This document shows positions 22,400-46,200 of a DNA stretch of 64,000 bases, piece by piece. Position 1 is the stretch's first letter. Each line of letters starts with the position of its first letter. The stretch comes from Pisaster brevispinus (Eukaryota > Echinodermata > Asteroidea > Forcipulatida > Asteriidae). The notes below the pieces were generated by a model. The model was given only the letters and a program-made list of their open reading frames with translations. It was not told the origin of the DNA and did no database searches. Position numbers and translations under genes: made by a program. The DNA is taken from the NCBI GenBank assembly GCA_023634235.1, contig JAMKCF010000019.1, forward strand, positions 8,449,684 through 8,513,683, written 5' to 3'.

Positions 22400-24661
22400 G
22401 TGAGTACCACATCGTTGATTTAAAAAAAAAAGTCTTAGAGCCTTATGTTTCGTATTTGCCTATTCTTTCGTGAATTAAAAGAAAACTAGATTTTATTGTT
22501 ATCTCGTATGTTTTCAATAAACAAAAGGCTGTCAAATTAACCTGTAAAAATCACAAATTCGGGGGTCACATTTACGAGAAAACAATGAATTAAGGATGAA
22601 AGTAAAGTTAGTTTGATATTTGACATTGGACATTCACATATGTTTGTACAGCGATTGTCAATGTTGCTTTAATCCAGTATCAAACTATAACTTTATTGTC
22701 ATATAGATTATATAGGGATGTTCGTGATTTTTTACGTTCATGTTTGACAGCAGACCCATCCCTTTTTTTAGAAGGTAAAATGTTGCAAATAGATTGTTGA
22801 TAAATTTTCAACGCTCAAATTACATATTATGTACAAATGTTATTTCTTCTCTCTGTCTCTTTCGGGCAAGAGGTTATTTGTTCATATTTATAGTGTGTTT
22901 TGTACTTGAGTTTCATCTAACAACCAAACTAATATGTGCATTCTGAATACTGCTTTTCTTTTCGACTTAACTTTGTGAAGTGCTGTTATATCATCAGCAA
23001 ATATCAACCAAAAAATATATATGATTTGTATATTAAATAACTTAAGTTTTTCAACCCGAAAGCTCCTCGACTATAGGCCCTATAAATTTATACCGATCCT
23101 CCACAAACAACCTATTTTGGATTGGAAAAACTGTTAACGTTGAGTTAATGTTATTTTAAGACTAAATAAGTCACCGTTGTTTACTTTGGTTACCACAAGA
23201 CCGATTTTAAAGAGCGCCAAATTCCTGACAAAACTTAAACTATTTTGTTAAATTTATTGTTTTCACTAAAAAACAAAAACGCAAGCATTTTCATAGTTTT
23301 AGCACACACTGTGGTCGTGTCATGTTTATTGAATATTGAGGGCGGGAGTTAATGTAAAATCTAGAAACAAACAGCCCATAAACAAACAACCGTGATATGT
23401 TCTTTAAAAAATATTCTTTTACCAATGATATGCGGAGGTGTGCATTCATCCCGTCGAATCCATTTTGTTGCGATTCATCATTTCATTTCATTTCATTACA
23501 ATCGGTATACAAAAGTTAATGATTACACATGCGAGTGTGTTTGCAATCGGCCTGTGGGTTTCTTTATATTCTGCCATTAGGCCTCATGAAACATTTTATA
23601 GTTGCTGTGTTCCTATTTAAACCTTGTTTGACGTCGATGGACATATTTCGTGACTATCGAGTCAAGGGGAAAGCTTTTTGGTTAATTGCTTTTGAGATAT
23701 ATCAACACCCCAACGATTGTGTTTATTTTTCCCCCCTTCAAAATTTACAATTAAACTGAGTTTTGAACAACTTTGTTTCAAACAGCCTACTTTATCACTT
23801 TAAAACCGAACACCTTTTCTGTGTTTTGAAGGACGGTCTGCACTGCAGTACGATAACTTTAATGCGTCTCAAAAAAAATTTTAAAAACCAAATACTGGGA
23901 TGGTAATTCTTTTAACCGGATATTTGTGTATTTGATTTTTTAAAGAATATCCCCGCGTGATAATGACATAGGCTCTTCAACTTTCTTGTATTGTACATTT
24001 TGACATTCTTGTAAGATTGTAAACCTTCCACAATGTTCTCTCTTTATTACACATCGATTGTGGTTCTAGTAGTCTTAAAGACATGATGTGCGCCATTGGT
24101 TTTGCTGGGGGTATGTAGGCGCCATTTTTATTAAGGTCATCGAATGAGTTGCATTTTACAGTTTCTTTTCACATAATCCACAAAAAGGCATTTCTCATCC
24201 AGGTTGATAATAACCACTCACAATACAGCATTGAAGTGAAAAGTCAAGGCAAAACTATAGTTGCTATACAACCTTCAGAATTGAGGTAATTCCTGATTGG
24301 GCTACAGAATAACAAAGGAAAATGGTCCCGTCTTATTTAATTTGTCCTATTCCAACTCCTCCAATCTTTCTGCTCTTAAATTGCAGAATTTCTGAAAAGA
24401 AGTGTGTCGATTCAGTTTGTCATATTAGAGGGGGTATAAAATTGGATTACGAATAGAAAGGGTTCCTTTGAGTTCTGTAACACACTCTGTATTTTAATTT
24501 CAGTTCGAAGGATGTTCTAACTACGTCAAGTAAGTTGACACGCAGATAACTTCGGTGTAATTTCGCGCCTGAATTGGCAAACTTCACGGCAATTTTAGCG
24601 GGAGAAAGTCTATCCTTCAAACTAGCATTTTACCAACAACATCTATACATGCATTGGTGTC
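22400..24661. other. AT-rich stretch upstream of the GPCR
   Basis: No coding exon recognised. It contains a candidate acceptor at 24503 followed 26 nt later by a GTAAGT (24530), which could be a small leader exon or chance. There are no clear repeats apart from homopolymer runs. Confidence 0.4.
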
Positions 24662-26940
24662 ATGGATCAATTGGACGTGAGCAATATAACTCTCATTGTT
24701 GAAGCCATGGACAACTCTTCAGATACAGGTTTAAATGAAGTGGACATCAAAGAAAAAGACGGCTTTTCTAAATTCGTCTTAGCTCTTTACGGCATAATCT
24801 GCATAGTTGGAATCATTGGTAACTTGCTGGTTGCCATCGTACTTCTCCGCGTGCCGTCCCTGCGGTCTAATACCAGTGATTTCTTAGTGCACCTCTCCGT
24901 TGTAGATTTCATGGTGTGTGTTCTGGTCATCCCAACGTATCTCGCACCAGCAGGGTCCAACACACCAGCCAACCCCGGAGGCTTTGGAGAGTTTTGGTGT
25001 CGATTTTACACCTCCAAGTTTCTGTACTGGAGCTTCGCGATCACTTCTGTTTTCAGTTTGATCACGGTCAACATGGAGCGGTACGTAGCCATCGTCTACC
25101 CGCACAAGTACAAGAAAGTTTTCTGCAGACGGAACAAGTACATGATGATTGCTGCTTGTTGGATCTTGGCCTCAATAACCAAACTTTACAAGCCTTGTTT
25201 GTTTGAGGTGGACAAAGTAAAAGGTTGTCGTCCTGTGCCGTGGCCTGACAAGGGAGCTCAAGCCGCATTTGGCGTGTACAATTTCACGGTCAACTTCTTT
25301 GCTCCATTTATTCTGATGGGTTTCGCGCAGTGGAGGGTGATTTCTTCACTGAACGGGCAGGTTAAGGTACTCACCAGAAGAGCAGGTAAGCAGGACTATG
25401 TAGGGTAGGCCTATACCACTTAATTAATTGGCCACATCACAAGTAGAACACTTGATGCTGGCACACCCACGTGCACACACTTACATTCTATTTTTTGCAT
25501 CCCTGTGGAGACATCTTTTGTTCTTTCCTTTGTCCCTGTAGTTAACAACCCTAGACTTTGTACACAACATTCCTTGTGCGGCACCCCAGCAGTCTTTAGA
25601 ATTTCGCTATGGGGACCATTTGTGTTCCCTTTTATGTTTTGTTCTTGTTCTCCATAAGGTAGTGAATATGAAATCACAGTTATTAGGTTGTGAAAACTTG
25701 ATGGCTTCGGCAGTGGCTACGGCTGGAACGCTGAAAAGTCATATATTCCTCAACGTTGTCATTGCAGCCGTATAGCCGAAGTCGCTTAATTCGGATAAGG
25801 TCTTATCTATCACAATCAAAGATCGATCGTATAGCGTTACTGCAAGTCGCAATATGGGGGAAACAAACTTGGCTCCTTTTCCTTCGGCGCCATCTTTGTA
25901 TGTAGTTCCCTGTCCACGTGCAGTCGTGGACACCGAGTCTCGTCATACAAACCAGATGTACCAATACATAGCTTTTTCTTTCTAGTTTGGTTACATAGCT
26001 TACCAATTATTGAAGCATTGCGCCAACGTCACACGCGGCTATTGTCTATCTCTCGCTGGCCATTTTGAGTTTAACAGCACGTGGCCTAAAATGCGCACTA
26101 CACTGTATAACACAGGGGGCATTGACTCCAAATGGCGCGCAACCAAGATAATTGCGAATATAGTAGTATGTCAAATGAATTGGGTCAATAGGGCCCATCT
26201 ATGTTATATATTCGATAAAACGTGTCCACTGTTACTTGAATATCGATGCTGACTGAAGTAATATTATTTGCCTCCTTGGGTAAACTATTTAAATAGTTTC
26301 GGTAGACCCACCTATTTCCAATCATCAAGCCATTGCCTCAAGACCCCCAAGCAGTGACGTAACCAGCGGGCTGGATGTCAGGGCGGGAGCCGCCCCGCCC
26401 CTCAGCTTGGACCCTTGAATGGTCACGATACATACCACCCCACACTAAGTCTGTTCCCCTACTTGCCCCCCCCCCTTGAAAATGCCCTCTCATCGAAAAT
26501 CGGGACATCTTTCTCAAGATTCTAAAGACGGTAAATGCACATTATCAATTGGTTTTCCTCTTCTTATTTTTTTGTTAAAAGGTTCTTCGGTCCTTAACCC
26601 CAGGGATCAGAGTGAAATGTGGCAACTCCGGGCCTCACAGACCCTGGTCAAGACCCTTCTGGCCTGCGTCATTTCCTTCGTCGTCTGCTGGGCTCCAAAC
26701 CAAGTCAGATTCCTACTGCTGAACCTGGGTGCGCCAGTCCAGCAAGGATCCCATTTCCAGTTCATCAGCGTTATCTTATCCGTGGGTAACTCCTGCGTGA
26801 ATCCAGTCATCTACACCTTGACGAACAAGCCGTTCCGTAAAGGGATCAGGGATGTGTTCTGTAAGCGGCGGAATTCGAACCAGGTCGAAGGCAGCAGTGG
26901 CAGTGGCGGTACAGTAGCCACCGTGTCTCGGACTCGCTAA
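24662..26940 (+). CDS. Class A (rhodopsin-type) peptide-receptor-like GPCR, two exons, 360 aa
   Basis: Exon 1 is 24662-25385 and exon 2 is 26582-26940 (stop TAA); GCAG|GTAAGC and AAAAG|GTTC join in phase to make Gly242. The product is a seven-helix plasma-membrane receptor. Visible landmarks: an extracellular N-terminus with N-glycosylation sequons NIT (8-10) and NSS (18-20); GN at 53-54 in helix 1; LSVVD (78-82) in helix 2; C113 before helix 3; ERY (139-141) in place of DRY; W167 in helix 4; C189 in the second extracellular loop, able to pair with C113; P215 in helix 5; CWAP (277-280) in helix 6; NPVIY (315-319) in helix 7; then a short basic tail ending in Ser/Gly-rich residues. The CWxPNQ and NSCVNPVIY pattern is typical of neuropeptide receptors (galanin/allatostatin-like group), but the ligand cannot be told. 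The single intron falls in the third intracellular loop. Confidence 0.85.
25386..26581 (+). other. GPCR intron
   Basis: A 1.2-kb GT-AG intron splitting the third intracellular loop. No exon-like or transposon-terminal signal was clear inside it. A C-rich run (about 26466-26475) precedes the second exon by about 110 bp. A GC-rich patch near 26370-26400 resembles degraded repeat DNA. Confidence 0.6.
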
Positions 26941-30350: not shown

Positions 30351-31079
30351 CAAAAAAAAAAACAAAGAAAGAAAGAAAGAAACAAACAAACAACCAGAGT
30401 ATCCCATCAAACTGGCACTGAGATTACTTTTTTCGTATAATAAAACAGCGCAGAGAAAAGTCATACGAGGGTTTTTATCCCTCGACTAAAAAACATCAGT
30501 TGCGCCACCAACGGGGGATGCAGAAAAACCCAGGCGCAAAACTGATACCTAATAACAAAGGGGTTTCCCCCTGAACATTAGACTTGTCCACACAGCTTTG
30601 CGTCCCTCCACTAAGCTCGTACGACTGCTGAATTGTATCATTGTTTTATTGTTTGTTTAGACTAGTTCTGTTGCCCCTTCTTCAAATATCCTTTTCTCTC
30701 TTTCTTTGTTATTGTTTTCTTTTCCACCCCCCTTTCCTTAGAGGCCCAGCTACAACACGATAAAATGTTGACATGTATACGGCGGACTCAGTGCTAATTA
30801 TCTTCACCGTGAACCATGACATTGAAGCGCTGCGTAATTGAGTCAGGGTTTATTGCGGACTGAATCATTCGTTAATCGCACGGATGTGACCATCTACTTG
30901 TCTATATTAAAGCTATCATAATCGTCCTCCGTGATACAGGTTGCAGCCCACTGTTAGTATAGCTAAACTATTCCCGAGTCTTCTAGTCAGTTGTCATACA
31001 CTGACATGAGTCCCCCTTAGATCTGTGAAATAGGTAGACAGTTGCTTGAGGACCAAACGGCTTTACACAAGGTAGAAAC
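30351..31079. other. parp1: Region upstream of PARP1
   Basis: No gene. This should contain the PARP1 promoter and 5' UTR. No TATA box is evident within about 150 bp of the ATG at 31080; a TATA-less promoter, common for housekeeping genes, would fit, but no start site can be placed from sequence alone. Confidence 0.4.
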
Positions 31080-31208
31080 ATGGCAGAGGCTGAGTCCAAG
31101 CGTGATCTTCCCTTTATGGCGGAGTATGCGAAAAGCAGCAAAGCTAAATGTAGACAGTGCAAGTGCAACATAGACAAAGACGAGCTACGGTTGGCAGAAA
31201 TAGTGCAG
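31080..31208 (+). CDS. parp1: PARP1 exon 1, copy 1 (43 codons)
   Basis: It starts at ATG and ends CAG|GTATTT, phase 0. It encodes the N-terminal half of zinc finger 1, with [14 protein letters not shown] supplying the two Cys ligands (24, 27) and [10 protein letters not shown] before the junction. At the position of human Arg18, a DNA-contacting residue, this copy has Lys21; the Arg of the LR pair (human Arg34) is kept. The full zinc site needs exon 2 (34192), which supplies WYHYKC. Confidence 0.88.
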
Positions 31209-34200
31209 GTATTTGTGTTATGTTTATGGTGATTTTAAGTGCGAGCAAGGACTGACAAGTGGTGGGACTGTTGTAAGGTGTTTTAATTTTGTTTTATACC
31301 AATATTGAAATATAGGAACACTGTTTCAGAACTAGAACATTTTAGAGCTCAACAAATCCCATCACCTCATCAATAATCCTATTAACCACGTCATCGCCAG
31401 ATCGTCGCTAAAATTTCTCATTCATCCTCAAGCACGCCACTAGCTTACTCATCACTAGACCTACCATAAAATTTGGGAGGACAAAAATATTCGTTTTTCA
31501 CGTCAATTTGATTTTTGTGTGTCAGTAAACATTATCTACACGGTAAGAAACAAATGATCTCCGGGCTTACTGCACCAAGTACACGTTCTTATACAACACA
31601 CCCCCACATGTCAACTCGACCGCGCGATCCAAACAACACTGACACGTTTTTTTACAGCAAAACTGACTGAAAAAGTCACATTTTGGTGGTTTTTACGTCT
31701 GTCATTTGGTGGCAATCATGGCAGAAGCGCCGAGAGATTTTAATTTCCGGGCAGAGTACGCTAAAAGCAACAGGGCGTCTTGTAGAGGTTGTAGAGGTTG
31801 TATCTTGAAAGACGGTCTCCGTCTTGCCAAAATGGTGCAGGTAAGATTTAAGAACCTTTAAAAAGGTATACACACAGGACAAAAAAACCTAAATTTTCAA
31901 TTCTAATCTGATCTGAAAGCTTACTGAATGTCATACTAGAACCATTTTGCCTCTGAAATATTTCCCTCTGAAATGAAGTCATATTAAATAAAACACAACA
32001 ACAGCTGAGTAATTTTGTTTGTTACAACCAAAATTAAGAAAACTTTTCAATATGATGAATGAATGTGTTTTACAGGCTGAAAATTGTGCATCGATTTCAC
32101 CATTTTCTCCCGAAGCCCATATTTTCACAGGCTTGTTATTTTATTTATTTAGGTTGATTACAAAAAACATGAACATTGTCTGTGACTTTTTCAACTCTGC
32201 CAATTCTGTATAATATTAGTACTAAAAAAATAGTAACCTTTAATCATGTTAATTATTAAATTAAACATAAAACATCACATTTTGCTGTTTTTGACGTCTG
32301 CCAATGTCAACGGTGGCAAGAGAGATTTTGAGTTCCTGGCTGAGTATTCTAAAACTAAAAGCAACAGGGCCTCTTGTAGAGGTTGTGGAGATTGTATCTC
32401 AGAACTTTTAAAAGACATTCTTCATTTAAAACCAAAATGGTGCAGGTAAGAAGATTGTTAATTGAACATAAACATTACATTTTGCTGTTTTAATTTTTAC
32501 ATGTGTCAATCATGGCAGAAGCCAGAAGCACAGACAGATTTTAATTGCCGGGCAAAGTACAGGGTGTCTTGTACTGTATGCATCTCAAAAAGACAGTCTC
32601 CATCTGACCCAAATGGATTTGAACCAACAACCTCCAGATTAACGTGCCGGCACTACCAACTGAGCTATCTAGCCCTATGTTGGCGGTCTCCCTAATTTGT
32701 CAATATTTTTGTTCGGGGTGCCAGTCAGAAAGGTGATGAAAATGTACGGTTTTCAATTTTGAGTCTTTTGTCAAATCTCAACAAATGCAGTCTTTACTCC
32801 AACAACTCATTGGATCCCATCATGATTGGTTTGTTTCTTGTTTTGCTGAAGTAATGAATAAAAAAGAAACCATGATTGGGCACTGTGGCTGAAATTTCCC
32901 AATTATTTCAGTACAAATAAGTGAATGTGGTGTTTCTTACCCGAGAGACATGGTCATTTCAACTATTGCCAATTTATGTTACTGACCAATTCAATAAACT
33001 GTTAAAAACACATTTATTCAAGTGTAGTTTTCATTGGTAATTTTTTCTCTCACTCAAAGGGACCTCTTGGTGATATGTGCTATGTAAGAACGGCCTTACT
33101 AATATTATTATCATTATTGTATTATTATACTGGCGTGTCGTTGCCGAGCAGATAAGAACACTGGACTCAAGCTCTGGTGGTTCTGACCAGCAGAATGTGG
33201 GTTTGCGTCCCGGTCATAACACTTGTATCCATAAGCAAGGCACAAAACCATTATTGCTGCATCCTTATGAAGTGTGTTGTGAAATGCACGTAAAAAAGAA
33301 ACCAGTGCACTAATCGTAACTTAGAGAAAGGGCTCGCTCCAGTGTTTCTGGTTTGATTGACTGCATATTGCATCACAGCACCTTGAACCAATACATGGTG
33401 CTACATAAAGGAATCGGGTCTTATACTTCAAAACTTACAATGTAGCTCTGTTCTGCCCCAATTTGACTATCGTCCCAACTATAGTTGGGACTGGTCCCAA
33501 CTTGAGTGTTAAAGTTGGGGCGCCCCAACTATAGTTGGGATCGCAGTAAACACAGAGCACCACCCTCCATGAATAAAGTAAAAACAATAAATTGTAAGTA
33601 GGAAGTTATTAAGACCACTTTATACTTGAGAATATTTTAATTTATTTAGAATGTTTGCTTTCCAAGAGAAGGGCCATCATCAGTTTTGACATGAGTCTGT
33701 ACAGAGCCGAGGCGCGGGTTTGAAATTAAGTATCTATCGTACTGTCTTAGTGTCACCACCTCCATGGTGTCATACAGCAATCCATGCATGATCGATCACG
33801 GTTAGCCTGTTGAGCTCTATGGGCGATCCCAACTATAGTTGGGATGATTGTCAAGTTGGGACGGAACAGCTCCACATACCTTATAGGAAAAAATACTGAG
33901 CACTTTGAGATGCCCATTGGGTGTGATAAAAAGCTAAATAAGAACTACCTATTATAGATGTATAAATGTCAAGTAATAAACCAACCCCGAACAAAGATAT
34001 TGACTAATAGGGAGACCGCCAACATAGGGCTGGATAGCTCAGTTGGTAGAGCTCCGGTACGTTAATCCGGAGGTCGTTGATTCAAGTCCCGCTTCAGTCA
34101 ATTTTTCTTTGGTCAAACCCAAATTATTATAGATGTACACACATGTTGTGTTTTTAATGTGATTTGGTGATTGTTTATATTTATTTTACAGTCGCCCTTT

Positions 34201-37200
34201 TTTGATGGGAAGCAGCCAAACTGGTATCACTACAAGTGTTTCTGGATGTTCGTCAAGAAAGTTGAATCAACCAGTGATATTGGTGAGACAAGATCTTTGC
34301 AATACAATCCTCACTAGTTTACGCATAAGTGAATAAGACTCTTTACAGTAAACTAATGTAGATTGCAGGTTAGTTTGATAAAGAAGTACTTTTTTGAGGT
34401 AATACATACAGTGCTACAAGCCAATGGCCAAGAAAATTTTCACCCTATACCTTCTTGTTTTTATTTGCCAAATGGAAGTATGCAGTTGCAAAGTGTTACA
34501 GATCGTTGTTTTGATGCAGCAAGGTCGCATCTCCAAAAATAGTGTTTACATGAAATGGGCCCAATTTCATAAAGCCTGTAAGCACAAAAACTTGCTAAGC
34601 ACAGACAAATCTTGCTTAGCAGAATCAGGTTACCAGCCAACATTCCATAATGTTTACATTGTTGCCACTGGTACCCCGCTCATTTCTTGCTAAGCATAGA
34701 AAGTTGCTAAGCAGAATTTTTTGCTTATTAGCTTTATGAAATTGGGCCATGGAAGTTTTAGAGTGACAAAAGATCTTAACTCGCCTGGATGAAAGTCAAT
34801 GGACGCCGAGATATGATGTTGTTGCACGGAGCACTTCTTCCCGAGATACAACTTTGTTGCACATGGGAGTTTGACCTTGTTGCACCGACATGACGAAATG
34901 TGCACAGATCTTATTAAAGACCATAAACCCATTGCAATGCATCATGGGTTTCTTTTCAAGAACGTGACCAGTTAATGAAAACAGGCTCTGCACTTAAGCT
35001 TTTTATAAAGTAACCCACCTGGCTGGTAAACTTTGTGTTTTATACTTGTCCCCAGGAAGTTTTAGTAGCCCAGATTTTTAACATGTATTTTTATGTATCT
35101 TCCCCATGTATTAATGGTAACGACCACAACCAGTTTATTGGGTAAACGAACTTACACTCACACACTCAAAAACAAATTAACACATTTTAAAATGTATTAT
35201 TCACATCGGAAAAGAAATATGAGCAGTTTTAAACAAGTAGGTAGCAGAGTTTAGTAGTTCACAGGGCAAGTTAAAAAGTGGTGTTTACTAGCCCACAGCA
35301 GTTTTTACTAGACAATATACGCCGGGCTAGTGTTAAGGGTGAGCCCTGGATGCAATGTGCATTGGTGGGTTCTGTTTTTATTTTTGGTTAAACTATTGAC
35401 CATGTGTGTGTGTATGCACTCTTTCAAAAACCAATGGTGAGCAGGTCTGGAATTACATGGAGGCCACTGAGGCCGTGGTCTCTGGTTCCCTAGGCCTTAG
35501 TCCCCCGTAAAAAGTTCCCCATGGACTAGAGTATTTTCCGACGGGAGTGCCCTTCGCAAAATGAAAATGCCCTCTCAAAGATGAAATTCCACTCCTGGAT
35601 AAACCATACCTTCGATTCAATAATACTGTTGCTATGAGTCTCAAGTTTTCCAAGTTCTATTTATAATTTGAAGGCTGTCAAACAGTTACCTGTAAACAAT
35701 TCACTCTTACGTTTGGGCAAGGCAAATCAGTCTTATGATAGTCCAATCCTTTGTGGACTTAGTTTCTTTAGAAAGGAGGAATCAGGAAGACCCCTAGATG
35801 AAGACGCTAGGGAGTAAGGGTTGTTATGTTCTGTACCGTTAAATCTGTTGTTATACAGGTCACTTTGATGCGTTACGCTGGGAGGACCAAGAGAGGATCA
35901 GAGAGCAAATCAGCGGAGGTGGAAGTGGAGGCGGCAAGGCAGCAGCATCCAAAAGTAGTAAGAAAACGGACACATTAGACGACTATGGAGTGGAATATGC
36001 CAAGTCCAACAGGAGCTCCTGTAAGGCGTGTGGCGACAAGATTGACAAGGTAGACAAGGCAGAGCTAGTCAGCTGTGTGTTTGACTGGCCCGAACATATT
36101 TAAACAAGCCTACATGTGTTTGACACAGGCAGGTTGGTAGTGTTTGACAAGCCAGCTGGGCTACTTTTCGTAAGAAGCAAGTCTAACTACATGTAGCCCT
36201 GTGACACCCCCCACCCCGATCTGCTTGTTGTACTCTTTTGATTACGGCTAGAAACGTTGGATGACTCCTTGGCAGTTCTTTGAGAAAAAGCCCTTCACAC
36301 TTTTTCCAAGTACCACTACTCTCACCTGCAACCCCCCCCCTCCCCTCCGATGTAAGCCAGGATTTAGAAACGGGTTCCCAACTTTGCTGTAACTTGAAAT
36401 GGATGCCTCAAAGTTGCTCATGAAAAAAGTGGTGTTTCTAACTTGAAATAAGATGTCTAACAGACTCTCAGACAGATTTATGATGAATACCTTGCCCCCC
36501 CCCCCCCCCCCCCCGCCCCAGCCTCTCCCCACCTTCTTCCTCTCTAATCTTCTTGAGCTGAAATAACTCTCTGTGAACAATTTCATATCAGGATGAGCTG
36601 CGCATTAAATATAGAAGTGCAGAAGCAGCTGCAGTGAAGGGCATCCCTGGTACCCTGGACACGTGGCATCATCTAGACTGCTTCGTCAAGCCGGACTGCT
36701 TAGCGGCCGTACAGTGGCAGGACACGTTCTCCATTAAACACCTTGAGGGGTTTAAGAAGCTGGAAGCGAATGACCAAAAACTCCTGGAGAAGAAATTCCC
36801 CTTGTAAGAGGTTTCATAACAATCCGTTTGCTTGTTAAAGCTTGTTGAACATCAAAGCTTATTTTTAAACGTAGGGTCTTAGATTACTTTCTGTTGATGT
36901 AATGCTGATTTATAGGCAAAATTGTAAAGAAAGATACAATAAAAGTCACATTTGAAAGTTTCAGCTAAGAACAGTGTTAAGAAAACAGAAAAAAACTGTT
37001 GTGATATTTTTACAAGAACGTTGAGTGAAAGCGGGTACCAACCTTATCTCTGGCCGCAGGATTCGCAACTGGACACAACCTTCAGAAATCTGAGAAACGA
37101 TTCATGCATGAATCGTTTCTCAGATTCAAATCTTTTTTTGAGTGAAAAATTTTCCAAACTATATTACTTTGAAGAGAATCGTTTCTCAATACAAATTATA

Positions 37201-40200
37201 CTACCAGCAGCTGCAGTGCTTCTCATCAAGTACTTTTTTATGGTCATTCATTTTTGGAGTATTTACATATCTATGACCCTACCTTTAAATTCCATGCTAT
37301 GTAAAATACTTTGTGGCAAGATTTTTCAAATGAGCCTCCCAGCATCCCAGAGTCTGGACTTCCTGCAGGCACAATGCGTACACAGCTCAATTGAAGAAAA
37401 CAAAATCTTACATTGCAGGGCACATTTTATTTAAGGAAAGGGGCACATCTCAAATCTTGTTCAACTGTTATTTTTTACGATACCTTTAAGTTTTTTTAAA
37501 ATTTAAGCTTCAAAGTGTACAACTTTCTGTTTCAACTGTGTAGTATCTTGCCTGCCAGGAAAAACCCAGGAGTGTGCAAGATAACTCTTTTTGTAAAATG
37601 TTACATCCCTTTAAGATGATCCCTCTCCTGCCGCTTCCCAGGTTGTATCATAAACTTGGGTGTGATCCCTGGCCACACGGCAGTTACAGATTGAATGGCC
37701 TCTGACTGGCACCCCCGAACAAAGATATTGACTAATAGGGAGACTGCCAACATTAGGGCTAGATAGCTCAGCTGGTAGAGCACCGGCATGGTAATCCAGA
37801 GGTGGCAGGTTCAAATCAAATTTTTATTGAATATTTCTTTGTTCAACACAAAATTATTTGTTAAAAAAACAGGTTATATGGACGAACAGTGTTATTCTTG
37901 ATTAATGTCCTGATAGCTCAGCTGGTAGAGCACCGGCATGGTAATCCAGAGGTGGCAGGTTCAAATCAAATTTTTATTGAATATTTCTTTGTTCAACACA
38001 AAATTATTTGTTAAAAAAACAGGTTATATGGACGAACAGTGTTATTCTTGATTAATGTCCTGTGTTGTTTTTGCAGGAAGCGGAAGTCTAAAGCCGTTGT
38101 TGATGAGCCAGACTGTAAGAAACTCAAAACACAAGTAGTTGACAAAGAGAAGGAAAAACTGAAGGTGAAGTGTTAATTTGTTTAATCATTTGCATTACAC
38201 TTTAGATATCGGGCTCGTTCCACTCTGGTGAACAACACAAACATTGGCCAGCTTACACGCACATTTTGGAACTGGAGCGCGTTGGTCACAAAAAGCGTTT
38301 GCAGTGTTTGAAAATTGGCAGATATCGGGCTCGTTCCACTCTGATGAACAACACAAACATTGGCCAGCTTACACGCACATTTTGGAACTGGAACGCGTTG
38401 GTCACAAAAAGCGTTTGCAGTGTTTGAAAATTGGCAGATATTGGGCTCGTTCCACTCTGTTGAACAACACAAACATTGGCTAGCTTACACGCACATTTTG
38501 GAACTGGAACGCGTCGGTCACAAAAAGCATTTGCAGCGTTTGAAAATTGGCAGATATCGGGCTCGTTCCACTCTGGTGAACAACACAAACATTGGCTAGC
38601 TTTTTTTTTACACGCACATTTTGAAACTGGAGCGCGTTGGTCACAAAAAGATATCGGGCTCGTTCCACTCTGGTGAACAACACAAACATTGGCTAGCTTT
38701 TTTTTTACACGCACATTTTGAAACTGGAGCGCGTTGGTCACAAAAAGATATCGGGCTCGTTCCACTCTGGTGAACAACACAAACATTGGCCAGCTTACAC
38801 GCACATTTTGAAACTGGAACGCGCTGGTCACAAAAAGCGTTTGAAAGTGTTTGAAAATTGGCAGATAGTCTAGAGGATGTGTTAGCATATGTTGCCAACT
38901 TTTACAGATTTTGGCAAAATCAGTGATGAAATTATACGGTAAAAATAATATATAAATAAATAAATAAATAAATAAATAAATGAATAAATAAATGCAATCT
39001 TCTTCCCAGACGCTATCCAGGGAGAAGATCCACATCCCTTTTGTTGACCACCTACAATTTGTAATACATTGTTTCCAATCCCCTACTTGTCCAGTCATAA
39101 GTTTACTGGCCAGACACTAAAACCACTGGCCTCGGGCCGGCGGTCAGGTGTAAAATTTTAGCCCTGGTACACTGGCCCACCTGTGGTTTTTGGTTCTGTG
39201 ACTATGAAGACTGGGTATATAGTGCTCTATTTTTAATCTTGATCTATTCTGAAAAAGTGTGTTGACATCTGCTGCTTTAGTTAGTGGGCAGATTGGAATA
39301 GATAGAAATTGTTAAGCGGTTAACAAGAGGACACAAGTTCCGTTTTAGGAAAATAATAATAATAATAGTAATATAAACATTTATATAGCGCCAAAACCAT
39401 TTAAAAGACAAATGCTCACAGGCGCTTCACATAGAATTGACATGAGCTAATAACATTTTTAAAATGCAAGAATTTAAAATACTATTAGAAGCTAAAAATC
39501 TGGACCAGCCAGTACAGGAAATTGTCAAAAAAGCATTGAAAAAGTAAGTGAAAACGGGCCTTCATTAATAATAATAAAAATAATAAATAATCAATTAACG
39601 AATCAATTAACCAACCAATTAATTAATCAATAAACCAAACCAAAAATCAATCTAGATACATAACCCTAAAGCGCTGTTTAAGAACTGCAAATCATTTTAC
39701 ACATCACAGGCGCAGAGTGAACAAGTCTGGAAAATCCGAGATGCCTTGAGGAAAAATTTGACAACAAATGAGATGAAGGAGCTCCTTGAGGCAAATGGCC
39801 AGGAGATACCATCTGGGGAGAGCAAGGTATGTCTACTTCATCCACTGGAGTGTTTACTCTTGATTCTAGATTCACATCTTTTTTGAAGCCTCTCGGCAGC
39901 AGACACTATTTGTTGCATGTGTCTGACTGAGGAAAGGTCTCAATTTCACACAAAAATCTTATCTATTTTTTTTTATTGTTTGTGAAAAAAGTGAGTGCTA
40001 AAACTGACAAGCTATCATTTTTTTGTGCCTCTTGCATCAACATGCGCAGGCAAATTGTGCACATTTATTGATTGGCCATTCTTTTTCTTGTCGTACTGAA
40101 AATTTGTTGTCTATTTCAAGCTTTTACAAGGTTTGTACTCAAACACAGGTGCAGCCACAACATTTTAAAAAGCAATGTGATTTATGCTCGTGTTATTATC

Positions 40201-43200
40201 TACACAGAGAGCTCTATGACTTATTTTATTCCAAATACAACATATATCACATGCAGTAGTTTCTCATGTTACATTGATGCAAAAAATTGGCTGCACACAA
40301 GACATGCCTAAAAAAAGTGACTCTGTGAGGTCATTTAGACACAGTACTAAAGTCGGTTTTAAGGCAGTTTTAACTCAATCGGGTTTAACTTTGTGTGTCT
40401 GAACGCTCTTAAAACTTAACCGAATCGGGTTGAACTCAAATGAGTTAAATCGGTCGTCGAGGGTGGTTTAACGCTAAACCACTTCGGGTTTATCTTTTAG
40501 CACGGTGTGTGGACAGAATAAAAATGCCAACATCCGCTTTAACTCACAACAGATGACCGCTGACCTGTGTAAGGTCACTGAGTAAATATGCCTACGTACG
40601 CCTCAATGTGCGCGTGCTTTTGTGAATAAACCAGATGTTGTTGTGTTGGGTCACGGTGCTGTGATAAACCGTATCGGGTTTAACTTCGAGCTGTCTGAAC
40701 GCAAGGTAGTTTTATTTTGACGACCGCCCCCCGCTGCTTGTAAAGTTAAACCGGTTCTGGTCTAACTTTAGTACGCTGTCTGAACATGGCCTTGAAGAGA
40801 TTTGCCTTTGAAAATAAGTTAAAGAAAAATACATGGTTACACTAAATAAACTTAATTAAAAGACCAAACAAAATCTACATACTTAGGGACAAACCAGCCA
40901 ATTGAATATAACGTGAAGATGGGTAGAGAGAAAAGCAAGGAGACTATGTCACATCATGGGAAATGAGAGACTTTTTATAAGATATTGTAAACCTGACCAA
41001 AGAGGATAAAGCTTTGATGGAGTGGTCAACCAAGTTCCAAAAACAAGGACCATATTTACATAATGTAATCGGCAGTAGAATAAATAGCAAGACAAGTTCT
41101 CAAAGAACAAACCTACACAGCAAAGTAGATATAGACACATGGTGTTACCTCAAACGTAATATACTTGATACCTCACCATGCAATGCCTCAAGTTCCATAC
41201 TCAATGGATTCCGTAACTGCATTACACTTACCAATATGATAGCAGGTAAACTCACAAATTAAACAAAATAAACAATTTAAAAAAAAAAAAAAAAAGCAAA
41301 GCATAAAAAACTACTCCTCTGCCTCATATTTTGAAAGCTGCAGTTAATTTGATGTATTCCCTCAACGGCACCAATAATTTTTTGTTTAAATGTTTGTGTC
41401 AACAAAGCTGTTGGATCGCTTGAGTGACATCATGACCTTTGGCCCCCTGGAGCCATGCAGTGAATGTGACCAGGGTCAGCTGGTCTTAACAACAGGTGGC
41501 TTCCGTTGCCAAGGCAACATATCATCGTGGACTAAGTGCACGGTATTCACCCAAGATGTAAAGAGGCGGAAGAAATTCATCATTCCGGACGACTTTGAAG
41601 TCTGCAGCTACCTGTAAGTTTTTTATGTTTAAACTTCCTCATTTTTTGCTTTTAATTAGTTTTGAACAGTTTGGTGTGATTGTAATTCTATTTAAGGGAA
41701 CGTATACCTTTGGTTTTTGGAACCGTTCGATTGTTTTAATCTAAATGGTGATATATACCATAGAACTAACCTGTAAAAATTTAATTTCAAAAGGTGGTAG
41801 CGTTTTTGAGATACCGCCCAAATTCCAGAGTGGTTATGTCCAAACAGGAAACGTCTTAGAAACGTCTCAGAAACGTATCTGACAGTAATGTTTCTCAGAT
41901 TCAAATTTGGGTATAAAACTGATATCTTTTTCCATAACCACATTACTATTTACTTTGTAGTAAAATGATTCTCAAAATGCTTTTGTACTACGGAAAGCTG
42001 CTGTACTTTTAACCAAGTAAGTTTTTGTTGCCATTAACTTTAAGAGTGATACCAAATGTAAACCTTTCCTTCAAAGTGAATTTAAATATGGAAGGTGATG
42101 TGGAGAGTTTACAGCCTCTACCACTCTACCTCATGCATAATAATAATAATAATAATAATAATAATGGCTATTTATATAGCGCTCATATCTGTCACTCAGT
42201 GACACTCAAGGTGCTTCAACATTCAGTATTGTCCTGCAAGGTATTTTGGGGCTACGTTTGAAGTATGAGACCTACTCCTTTACATAGCACCATGTAATGG
42301 TTTACAAGGTGCTGTGGTGCAATATGCAGCCAATCAAACCAGGAACACCGGGGCGGACCCCTTCTCTTTTCGATAAGTGCACTGGGTTCTTTTACGTGTG
42401 TTACACAACACACGGGACCAACGACTTTACGTCCCATCCCAAGGACGAAGCAATCATGGTTAAGTGTCTTGCTTAAGGACACAAGTGTCACGACCGGGAC
42501 TCGAACCCACACTCTGCTGATCAGAAACACCAGTGATCTTATCCGCTCGGCCACGACACGCCATGAGCAAGAGCAAGAGCCAAATTCTCACTGGTCTTCA
42601 CTACCATACCTCATACATATTCATGATCAAGAGCCAAATTCTCACTGGTCCATTCACCACCACATGTTATTTTTGCTGTTAACCAAGCATGCATGCAAGT
42701 AGATTCACGCGCTTGCAAGGCATAATACATGTACCTGCTTTTTCACTCTGTCATCAAACTTTAGTTTTGCTGGAGTGATTGTGTTAATTTAAACCAAATA
42801 TTAAGAAATCATGTCTCCTGTTGCTCCCAAACCAGAGAATCTTTCAAGTTTAAACCCTTCAATGGTGGCAAGCGGATGTTTCCAAAAGAGGAGCCAGGAC
42901 CATCAAAAAGGTTGAGGTAGTTTACTCTCTTGTCTCTACTTTTTAAATTTTTTTTTACAGTATGTGGTTTTCATTGCATTGAGAAATTAGTATGTTGTGG
43001 TTCAGCCACTTTGCTTTTTTTCCATTCAAATCAATGTGTAATCAAACTGAGGCTGTAAGATAAAATAGTCGGTCTCTTTTTTATACATAGATTATGAGTG
43101 TTGCTTTATGTTATTGAATACAGGGAACGAGACTAACATGGCTGCTACATCATGAAGGCCTATCAATCAATTGACACTTATGTCCATACTGTCATAAACA

Positions 43201-46200
43201 AAGTAACAAAGTAGTTAGTGGCCTGACGTTTCGACCCTAGCAGAGTCTTTCTCGAAGGCTAAATGACAAGACATTTAGCCTTCGAGAAAGACTCTGCTAG
43301 GGTCGAAACGTCAGGCCACTAACTATTTTTTTTGCATTTATACCATATGTCCTTTTGGTTGGTAAGCAGTTTGCAACAGCTAATACTATTTTTCAAACAA
43401 AGTAATACAATACATGTAAAAGGTAATAATGAACATGAACAGGATAAACTAATTTATTAGGCTAGAATAAGCAAAGAAAGAAACAGTATGGAGGCCGATT
43501 TGATAAGCCAAGGCTTGTAGTAATCAGCCTGTGGACAGTCGGAGACAAGACAGACAAATTGAGACTCGGTGTATAAAGACCAATAAAAAACAAAAGTGAC
43601 TTTGTGCATTTAAATTTGACACAGCAGAAGTGCAACGATTGAAACAGGCTGTGGTCTTATGTCACTTTGTCCTCTTGAATTTAGTCCGGCAATAGTACGA
43701 GGACCCAAGAACCCATTGCAGAACGTGGAGGTGACATCAGCAGGGAAGCTGAGCCTTTCCATCAGTGTGATCAAGGAGATCATAGCTCAGCTTGGGGGGA
43801 AGTACTCTACCTCTGTCACGTCATCCACTGCATGTGTTGTCAGCTCAGAAGGTCAGGCAAAGTTCCTATACACTTCCATTCCTACTTATCAGTGTAATTC
43901 TAAGGGTAACCAACCCATGATTCACAATGCCACAAAAGTTGCACTTTGATTTACACACATGCTTATGTAGAGGGTACGGCCATTGCCCAAGGTGCTCCAT
44001 TTAAAGTGGTTAATCGAAGAGGCTGTGTTTAGTTGCAGTGGAAATTGGGGCTACTCTCAGTGGGCCTTAAGGCTCTCACACTTCAGTTTTTACAGTGGCA
44101 ATACTTTCAAGTTTTCAACAAACACATGAACTTTACTTTGACCTTTTTTGTTGAGTGGAAGTAGGTGAAATCTTGCGGCTGTTTGCAACCTCTATGAGCA
44201 TCTTAGTACAAGCCACTTGCAGCTAATTATGGTCTCTAAATGGTCGAGTAGCAAGGTCGAAAAGCCCACAGTCCAAGCCCCATTCACATGCTAACCTACA
44301 CATGTATTGGCTAAATTAAGCAGTGCTGATTTATTCCATTTTTTTCCCCATTCTCAACAATAAACTCCAGGAGAGGTGAAGAAAAGGTCGCCGAAGATTA
44401 CCAAGGCTGAAGACCTCATGATTCACGTAGTCTCTGTTGAATTCCTAAACGAGATTGAAAAAAGCGGAGATATACTCAAGCTGATCCCACAACACAGCAT
44501 AGCTCCCTGGGGTTCAGATGTAAGTCCAACTTATGGTCATGCTCCCAGTATCCAACAATAGTAATCAAACCTAACATTCATTTGACGAAAAAGAACCAGA
44601 CTATTTCTGCTTCCAGCCTCGGTTTGGTTGCAATTATTTGAATGGGAGAAAATCAAGATGGCCTCACCATGTTAAAGGTTTATTGACAACTAACATTCTG
44701 AAGCTGATGGTGATATTCAAGGTTGGAAATCTGCCTTGCACTGAAATATCTTGCTTAGCAGAAAGTTAGCGGGTTTACCAGCTGAAATGCCATTTGTTTT
44801 ATATTGTAGTGACTAGTGCTCTGCACTATTTACATGTGCTTGCAGATTAAATTGCTGAGCAATATTTTCTGCTTAAACAAAACATAAAAAATTGGTTAAG
44901 GGAATAGTTCAGGGAAACCTGTAGATAAATTTGCCAGCCTGCAATATCGTGTGGTTAATGCATCTATACAGTACACAGTGAACCCTCCTACTGTCTTACC
45001 ATTCAGTATCAGTCACTGTGGCTTTGAATGATTGATGCAATATGATTTCATGTGGTAAATACATATATTTACCCAACTCATCTGACAAGGCCTTTATAAT
45101 AACGTGGTTGCACCATTTTGGGAGTTAATGTCCTTGTGTGCGTTTAAGGCCACTCTATATTTAAATGCTTACCATAATTTTTACATGCAAATTGACCCCC
45201 AAAGAAGCGAGGGTGGTGTGACACTGGTGCAAGGCTATCAGTACATTACATAAGAAGTTCTGTACATAGTTGTTCTACCACATACACGGTAGGATTTGAA
45301 ACTTTGCATGGTGGAAGTATAACTAAGAGAGGTTTGCGGTAACACCATGTGAAAATCTCTTTTGAGTAGTGTTGGTTCTGAAAAGAGCCGGTGGTTAACG
45401 ATTCAACGTTTCAATCAGTATGCTCTGATAGTCTTCAGGAGAATGTATGATCGTCTTCAGGAGAATATATTCAGCATTCTCCTGAAGATGATCAGAGCAT
45501 ACTGATCGAAACGTTGAGTCGTTAACCACCGGCTCTTTTCAGAACCAACACTACTCAAAAGAGATTTTCACATGGTGTTACCGCAAACCTCTCATAGTTA
45601 CACATACATGGTAAAATCCTTGTTGTTGCTGCAGCCATTGTCCACAGTCATTGTGAAAGTCGCTTGATTCGGGCACAGCCTTAAATACCAATTATACTGT
45701 CTGCAGTCCGCCTAACACTTGTGCTGTCTCATGCCTTGCAAGTCTAGAGAATATACGCCAGCGAGCCTACTCTCAGACCATTCAATATCATCCACTGGTT
45801 TTGAAGGATAGATCCGCTATACCAGCCTGCAATATGACATCATGTAGGGAATGCATCTACACCATACACATATGGTCTGTGCATAGTTGTGCCACCTTGC
45901 ACAACCCGTTTCATAGCATGGTTTTGAATGGTCAGTCAACTCACTGGCAAATTTACACTGAAAGTAGGATGGTGAAAGGATCCAATTGACAGGTTTACAT
46001 GTGTATTTTCTCATTTAATTGTAGGTTGCAGATAGGATAAATAAAGATCAAACAGACAGTAAAGGATCATTTCCATCAACCAGTTACAGAGGTGAAGACA
46101 GTGCAATGGGTAAGCCTTAATGACCACATTCACACTTGATCCGGCAAGGGCGATCAAAGGAGGATCAGATCCTGCAAGGGCGATCAAAGGGCGATCAACA

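Follow-up and report, generated by a model that had tools for sequence, protein, structure and literature searches.

The first coding exon of PARP1 in the sea star Pisaster brevispinus is present in four tandem copies, starting at positions 31080, 31718, about 32306 and 32512 of the analyzed 64-kb stretch of DNA (hereafter, the window); copies 1 and 2 are open and copies 3 and 4 are broken. The best among the readings we tried is that copies 1 and 2 represent alternative first exons of one full-length PARP1, derived from an old tandem duplication, and on the sequence evidence presented below we consider it, on balance, probable. Either intact copy would start the protein and would be spliced in phase 0 to a common exon 2, giving products of 1005 or 1003 residues with distinct N-terminal halves of zinc finger 1. 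Copy 2 would be the conserved and probably main version. Copy 1 would be a diverged but constrained version, most simply driven by a promoter of its own, further upstream, and used in a given tissue, at a given stage or under a given stress; copies 3 and 4 would have arisen later, by duplication of the copy 2 unit, and have died since.

Copy 1 (31080–31208, plus strand) has 43 codons, begins with an ATG, encodes C21/C24, R34 and Q40, has a Lys at the position of Arg18 and ends in a phase-0 donor (CAG/GTATTT). Copy 2 (31718–31840, plus strand), the counterpart of the first exon of the Asterias rubens protein, has 41 codons, an ATG, C21/C24, R18, R34, Q40 and a phase-0 donor (CAG/GTAAGA). The translation is stop-free in both. 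Copy 3 (32306–32445, plus strand) lacks an ATG at the corresponding position, and its insertions shift the donor to phase 2, incompatible with the frame of exon 2. Upstream, at 32246, there is an ATG in frame with this copy, from which the frame is open. The donor letters of copy 3 are identical to those of copy 2, with a score of 10.2 for both. In copy 4 (32512–32612, plus strand), the frame from the ATG at 32512 runs into a stop after 10 codons; there are internal gaps, and the match ends short of any donor. In a repeat search, all four copies form one family with start-to-start spacings of 632, 588 and 213, and ungapped identity to copy 2 over 42 nt is 67% for copy 1, 79% for copy 3 and 62% for copy 4. 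The sequence-only reading of this locus had claimed four tandem copies, two of them intact, with an ATG, the CxxC pair and a phase-0 CAG/GT donor, and two decayed; translation and the repeat-family search bear this out. When scanned as bare exons with the zf-PARP profile, copies 1 and 2 score 31.8 and 33.7 bits, respectively, and copies 3 and 4 are absent from the genome-scan matches at E≤0.001. When joined to exons 2 and 3, the Pfam zf-PARP scores are 95.1 bits for copy 1 and 94.6 bits for copy 2, and the best E-values to human PARP1 chains are 8.3e-38 and 4.5e-46, respectively, mostly reflecting common exon sequence. The sole match of copy 1 DNA in the genome is copy 1 itself.

The zinc pair of copy 2 lies within a short internal repeat, TGTAGAGGTTGTAGAGGTTGT (31781–31801), translated as CRGCRGC with a third Cys, which is also present in A. 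rubens; copy 1 has an additional Cys one residue earlier. Intron 1 contains a pair of repeats in opposite orientation (32615–32719 and 33984–34089), 86–96% complementary in pieces. The pair was taken to resemble a tRNA; an ARAGORN scan of the 64-kb window gave no tRNA gene.

With 200 kb of downstream DNA added (twenty 10-kb stretches of the same contig), the PARP1 gene is whole. It consists of 23 coding exons on one contig, with no run of N inside the gene and a single open frame over all exons that amounts to 1003 aa with copy 2 and 1005 aa with copy 1. Exon ends were hand-picked among GT/AG candidates on the basis of frame and homology, so that the GT-AG ends are partly by construction. All exons within the window are on the plus strand. 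Exon 2 (34192–34282), common to both versions, encodes the second half of zinc finger 1. It is followed by exon 3 (35859–36049; end of zinc finger 1 and start of zinc finger 2), exon 4 (36592–36803; zinc finger 2), exon 5 (38077–38164; basic linker), exon 6 (39710–39826; PADR1/third zinc domain), exon 7 (41408–41613; PADR1 zinc ribbon), exon 8 (42836–42910), exons 9 and 10 (43685–43851 and 44371–44519; BRCT), exon 11 (46025–46109) and exon 12 (48057–48143), the last within the window. Exons 13–23, encoding the WGR, regulatory and catalytic domains, lie outside the window (109765–125933 on the window scale), beyond a 61,621-base intron 12, which is twelve times longer than the next longest; the other introns span 519 to 5150 bases. 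Seven Pfam families score above the cut-off in the 1005-residue copy 1 version, namely, zf-PARP, PADR1_N, PADR1 zinc ribbon, BRCT, WGR, PARP_reg and PARP, and the domain order is that of a full-length PARP1: zf-PARP fingers 1 and 2, PADR1, BRCT, WGR, regulatory and catalytic domains. Cys21 and Cys24 are kept in both copies and WYHYKC is provided by exon 2; we take the zinc ligands of finger 1 to be C21xxC24 in exon 1 and the His/Cys in exon 2. The earlier placement of the exon 2 start at 34192 stands, with the small correction that this exon extends to 34282 and leaves phase 1, and the proposal that either intact copy can be joined to it in frame holds within a complete, apparently single PARP1 gene.

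Since the window itself contains exons 1 to 12 only, with no WGR or catalytic exon, and short proteins are recorded for A. rubens and Patiria, a truncated or pseudogenized PARP1 was considered. This reading was rejected because the absent exons are found 61.6 kb downstream with the frame kept. The short database proteins, one from A. rubens (535 aa) and one from Patiria (537 aa), end just past the donor at 48143 (..ESGQ..), and a separate Patiria record, on a contig of equal length, contains the WGR and catalytic part only. The two Patiria records probably stem from a single gene that annotation divided at the long intron; a short PARP1 ending past this donor may also be a real short isoform. 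As for polyadenylation behind such an isoform, there are three AATAAA signals in the first 2.9 kb of the 61.6-kb intron and 0.76 per kb over the part of the intron inside the window, a comparison that carries no weight either way. Intron 12 (48144 to 109764 on the window scale) also hosts, at 71981–73108 of the same scale and on the minus strand, a single-exon frame for a rhodopsin-type receptor (376 aa; 7tm_1, 140.2 bits). The nearest coding matches noted upstream of PARP1, at 24626–26940 on the plus strand, are two frames that each match one part of a rhodopsin-type receptor (92.6 and 46.8 bits for 7tm_1).

A zf-PARP profile scan of the 549.7-Mb assembly (512 contigs; the window corresponds to C19:8449684-8513683) yielded four matches at E≤0.001, three in the PARP1 gene and one on contig C2; none was found in the 14 control genomes of the scan. 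The C2 frame, MADNRYSIDYARLGTSKCKKC, is presumably a DNA ligase III-type finger, as judged by resemblance. The catalytic half of the Patiria protein gave 18 exon matches in the genome, 10 in the PARP1 gene and eight elsewhere (four on C8, two on C4 and two far off on C19). The latter eight were taken for putative other members of the PARP family. By the zf-PARP matches, PARP1 appears to be a single gene in this genome.

The two open copies were compared with 79 distinct exon 1 tails, many of them vertebrate, taken from protein search matches; exon 1 sequences without a following SPxFDG or outside 32–48 residues were left out, a filter that by itself makes Q40 invariant, and one row is shifted out of register. 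Of the near-invariant residues, copy 1 retains E12, Y13, A14, K15, S16, C21, C24, I28, L33, R34, A36 and V39. Relative to residues held by at least 70 of the 79 tails, it departs at four positions (R18K, S20K, K22R and M38I) and copy 2 at K22 only. At position 18, copy 2 has Arg and copy 1 has Lys, the latter shared with a single one of the 79 tails (Acanthaster). In human finger 1, Arg18 reportedly inserts into the DNA minor groove (PMC4678113). Given this contact, the two versions of the finger would differ, conservatively, at a site of DNA contact.

Copy 1 shows signs of coding constraint. Over 38 codons aligned with copy 2, there are 13, 11 and 23 mismatches at codon positions 1, 2 and 3, respectively; thus, third positions differ in 23 of 38 cases versus 24 of 76 for the first and second positions combined (Fisher P = 0.0045). 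The NG86 estimate of dN is 0.376 and dS is beyond range, which is why simulations were used (equal branch lengths, kappa of 2, no indels). With copy 1 neutral (omega of 1) and copy 2 evolving at an omega of 0.1, differences this few without a stop arise with P = 0.0067, and with omegas of 0, 0.05 and 0.2 for copy 2 the P-values are 0.0073, 0.0060 and 0.0013, respectively. The best fit among the seven omegas tried for copy 1 is 0.2; an omega of 0.5 is not rejected (P of 0.11 to 0.26) and an omega of 0.75 gives P = 0.053. On a neutral branch with 0.62 changes per site, 1 to 2% of exons keep the ATG, the frame and the GT, with indels uncounted, and about 0.01% do so once an assumed indel rate is added. 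This speaks for selection having acted on the coding sequence of copy 1 over most of its history, although the signal is an average over that whole history and is blind to a recent loss of use.

The upstream flanks suggest an order of duplication. The flank of copy 3, common with copy 2, scores 41 against the latter (shuffle maximum, 28) and that of copy 4 scores 51 against copy 3 (34 for shuffles), whereas copy 4 compared directly with copy 2 does not exceed shuffles (21 versus 30). The flank of copy 1 displays no similarity above shuffles to any stretch compared, copy 2 included. This pattern of sharing suggests that copies 2, 3 and 4 form a younger set, from which copy 1 split off earlier. 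That copies 3 and 4 are broken, despite their younger age, counts in favor of the alternative-exon reading. The best protein match is a PARP1-like protein of A. rubens, with 87% identity over the N-terminal half (exons assembled here). Its exon 1 is identical to copy 2 at 38 of 41 residues and has 22 identities with copy 1 over the last 38 residues, so that the duplication of copies 1 and 2 would, most simply, predate the split from A. rubens. Exon 1 sequences of Acanthaster and Patiria resemble both copies. In the exon 1 tree (17 peptides, 41 columns), copies 1 and 2 group with A. rubens with a support of 34/71, copy 1 forms a long branch, and the data do not reject a topology that forces copy 1 together with the exons of Acanthaster and Patiria (AU P = 0.488). 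Given this lack of resolution, neither copy is named ancestral. Patiria miniata has a second PARP1-like protein (1024 aa), encoded on another contig; its exon 1, of 43 residues, scores 49.7 bits against copy 1 and 35.0 bits against copy 2. The sequence-only reading had held that decay of copy 2 in relatives, together with a lack of junction reads from 31840, would refute two versions; as to decay, the opposite is seen, copy 2 being well conserved in A. rubens, and it is copy 1 that needs proof.

The earlier suggestion that two N-terminal versions could be made from one gene thus gains from the in-frame joining to a complete gene and from the constraint on copy 1 since an old duplication, and loses from the A. 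rubens protein being of the copy 2 type, from the failure to find a protein with copy 1 and from the weak copy 1 donor. The donor of copy 1 deviates at +4 (no A) and at +5 (no G) and outscores three of the 21 other donors of the gene; that of copy 2 outscores 20 of 21. In the A. rubens database protein, whose title names no isoform, an exon of the copy 2 type is joined to exon 2. A copy 1 protein query gave eight matches among 30 candidates, none of them seen with copy 1; the records are clustered at 90% identity, such that isoforms differing only in exon 1 would share a cluster, and the A. rubens cluster has three further members beyond the record compared. The CpG observed/expected ratio is 0.62 to 1.00 over 30501–32000 (window mean 0.68, SD 0.29) and low, 0.34 to 0.45, over 31751–32500, around copies 3 and 4. 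Such a mild rise in CpG around the two intact copies hints at promoters weakly at best.

These observations leave room for a history in which copy 1 was long a working first exon, recently went out of use, and copy 2 alone now starts PARP1. We regard this as rather unlikely, even if the weak donor, the substitutions at R18 and M38 and the protein records, which include no copy 1 type and show only the copy 2 type in A. rubens, fit such a loss, and the constraint, averaging the whole history, would not reveal it. On the other hand, the ATG, the frame and the donor GT are still intact over 43 codons, and the bare-exon zf-PARP score of copy 1 is close to that of copy 2. More doubtful still is a role of copy 1 as an upstream decoy, whereby transcripts that start at the upstream promoter and include the ATG of copy 1 would be spliced or read into the leader of copy 2 and a short upstream frame would tune the level of PARP1. 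Copy 1 does lie upstream of copy 2 in equal orientation, and each ATG is flanked by A at −3 and G at +4. However, such a frame would need no zinc-finger residues, yet copy 1 kept them, and there is no outstanding acceptor before copy 2: the site suspected near 31659 is outside the ten best of 30500–32520, and those ten score 5.8 to 10.3, values common in the intron (4.8 sites per kb at a score of at least 6). Finally, an artifact or chance, in the form of haplotypes joined by misassembly or of a truncated pseudogene derived from PARP1, as might be suspected from the window alone and from the A. rubens and Patiria proteins stopping at the equivalent point, is very improbable considering that the remaining exons follow in frame in the same contig, that the gene is free of N runs and that the divergence between copies 1 and 2 is far too great for two haplotypes. 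Under the preferred reading of copies 1 and 2 as alternative first exons, we infer present-day transcription of copy 1, a separate promoter for it and any difference in DNA binding between the two fingers. More tentatively, and with less than even confidence, we propose that the sea star makes two PARP1 proteins, with an Arg18 and a Lys18 finger 1, which would differ in their grip on breaks or in expression and would both have been kept since before the split from A. rubens.

By this arrangement, the PARP1 array would join the tandem alternative first exons already described, for example in UGT1A, where homologous first exons each have their own promoter (PMC9013439). The two loci share tandem homologous first coding exons, each of which can be joined to common downstream exons, for different N-termini and a common C-terminal part; in PARP1, two of the four copies are tandem homologous first exons with equal donor phase, with dead exon copies beside the live ones. 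There are also differences: UGT1A has thirteen first exons with promoters demonstrated experimentally, whereas PARP1 has two intact copies with putative promoters, and the part swapped would be half of a DNA-binding zinc finger. A further likeness is found in oyster AOX (PMC5589949), in which a coding exon (exon 10) forms a tandem pair, with one member conserved across taxa and the other changed near key functional sites; there, expression of both variants has been demonstrated, and it is the last exon that is duplicated, rather than the first as in PARP1. PARP1 of A. rubens, Acanthaster and human resembles that of P. brevispinus in domain order and in the end of exon 1 (...VQ before SPxFDG), and none of the compared records of these three contains two exon 1 versions. 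Among the open-literature papers listed, judged by titles and the beginnings of abstracts, we found none on alternative first exons of PARP1.

Finger 1 of PARP1 is central to the cellular sensing of DNA breaks. If the proposed reading is true, a DNA-repair enzyme would join the genes that vary their N-terminus via tandem first exons, and one enzyme with a natural pair of finger 1 versions would offer a ready comparison for Arg18 and its neighbors in regenerating animals, in which a single PARP1 gene would yield two DNA-damage sensors.
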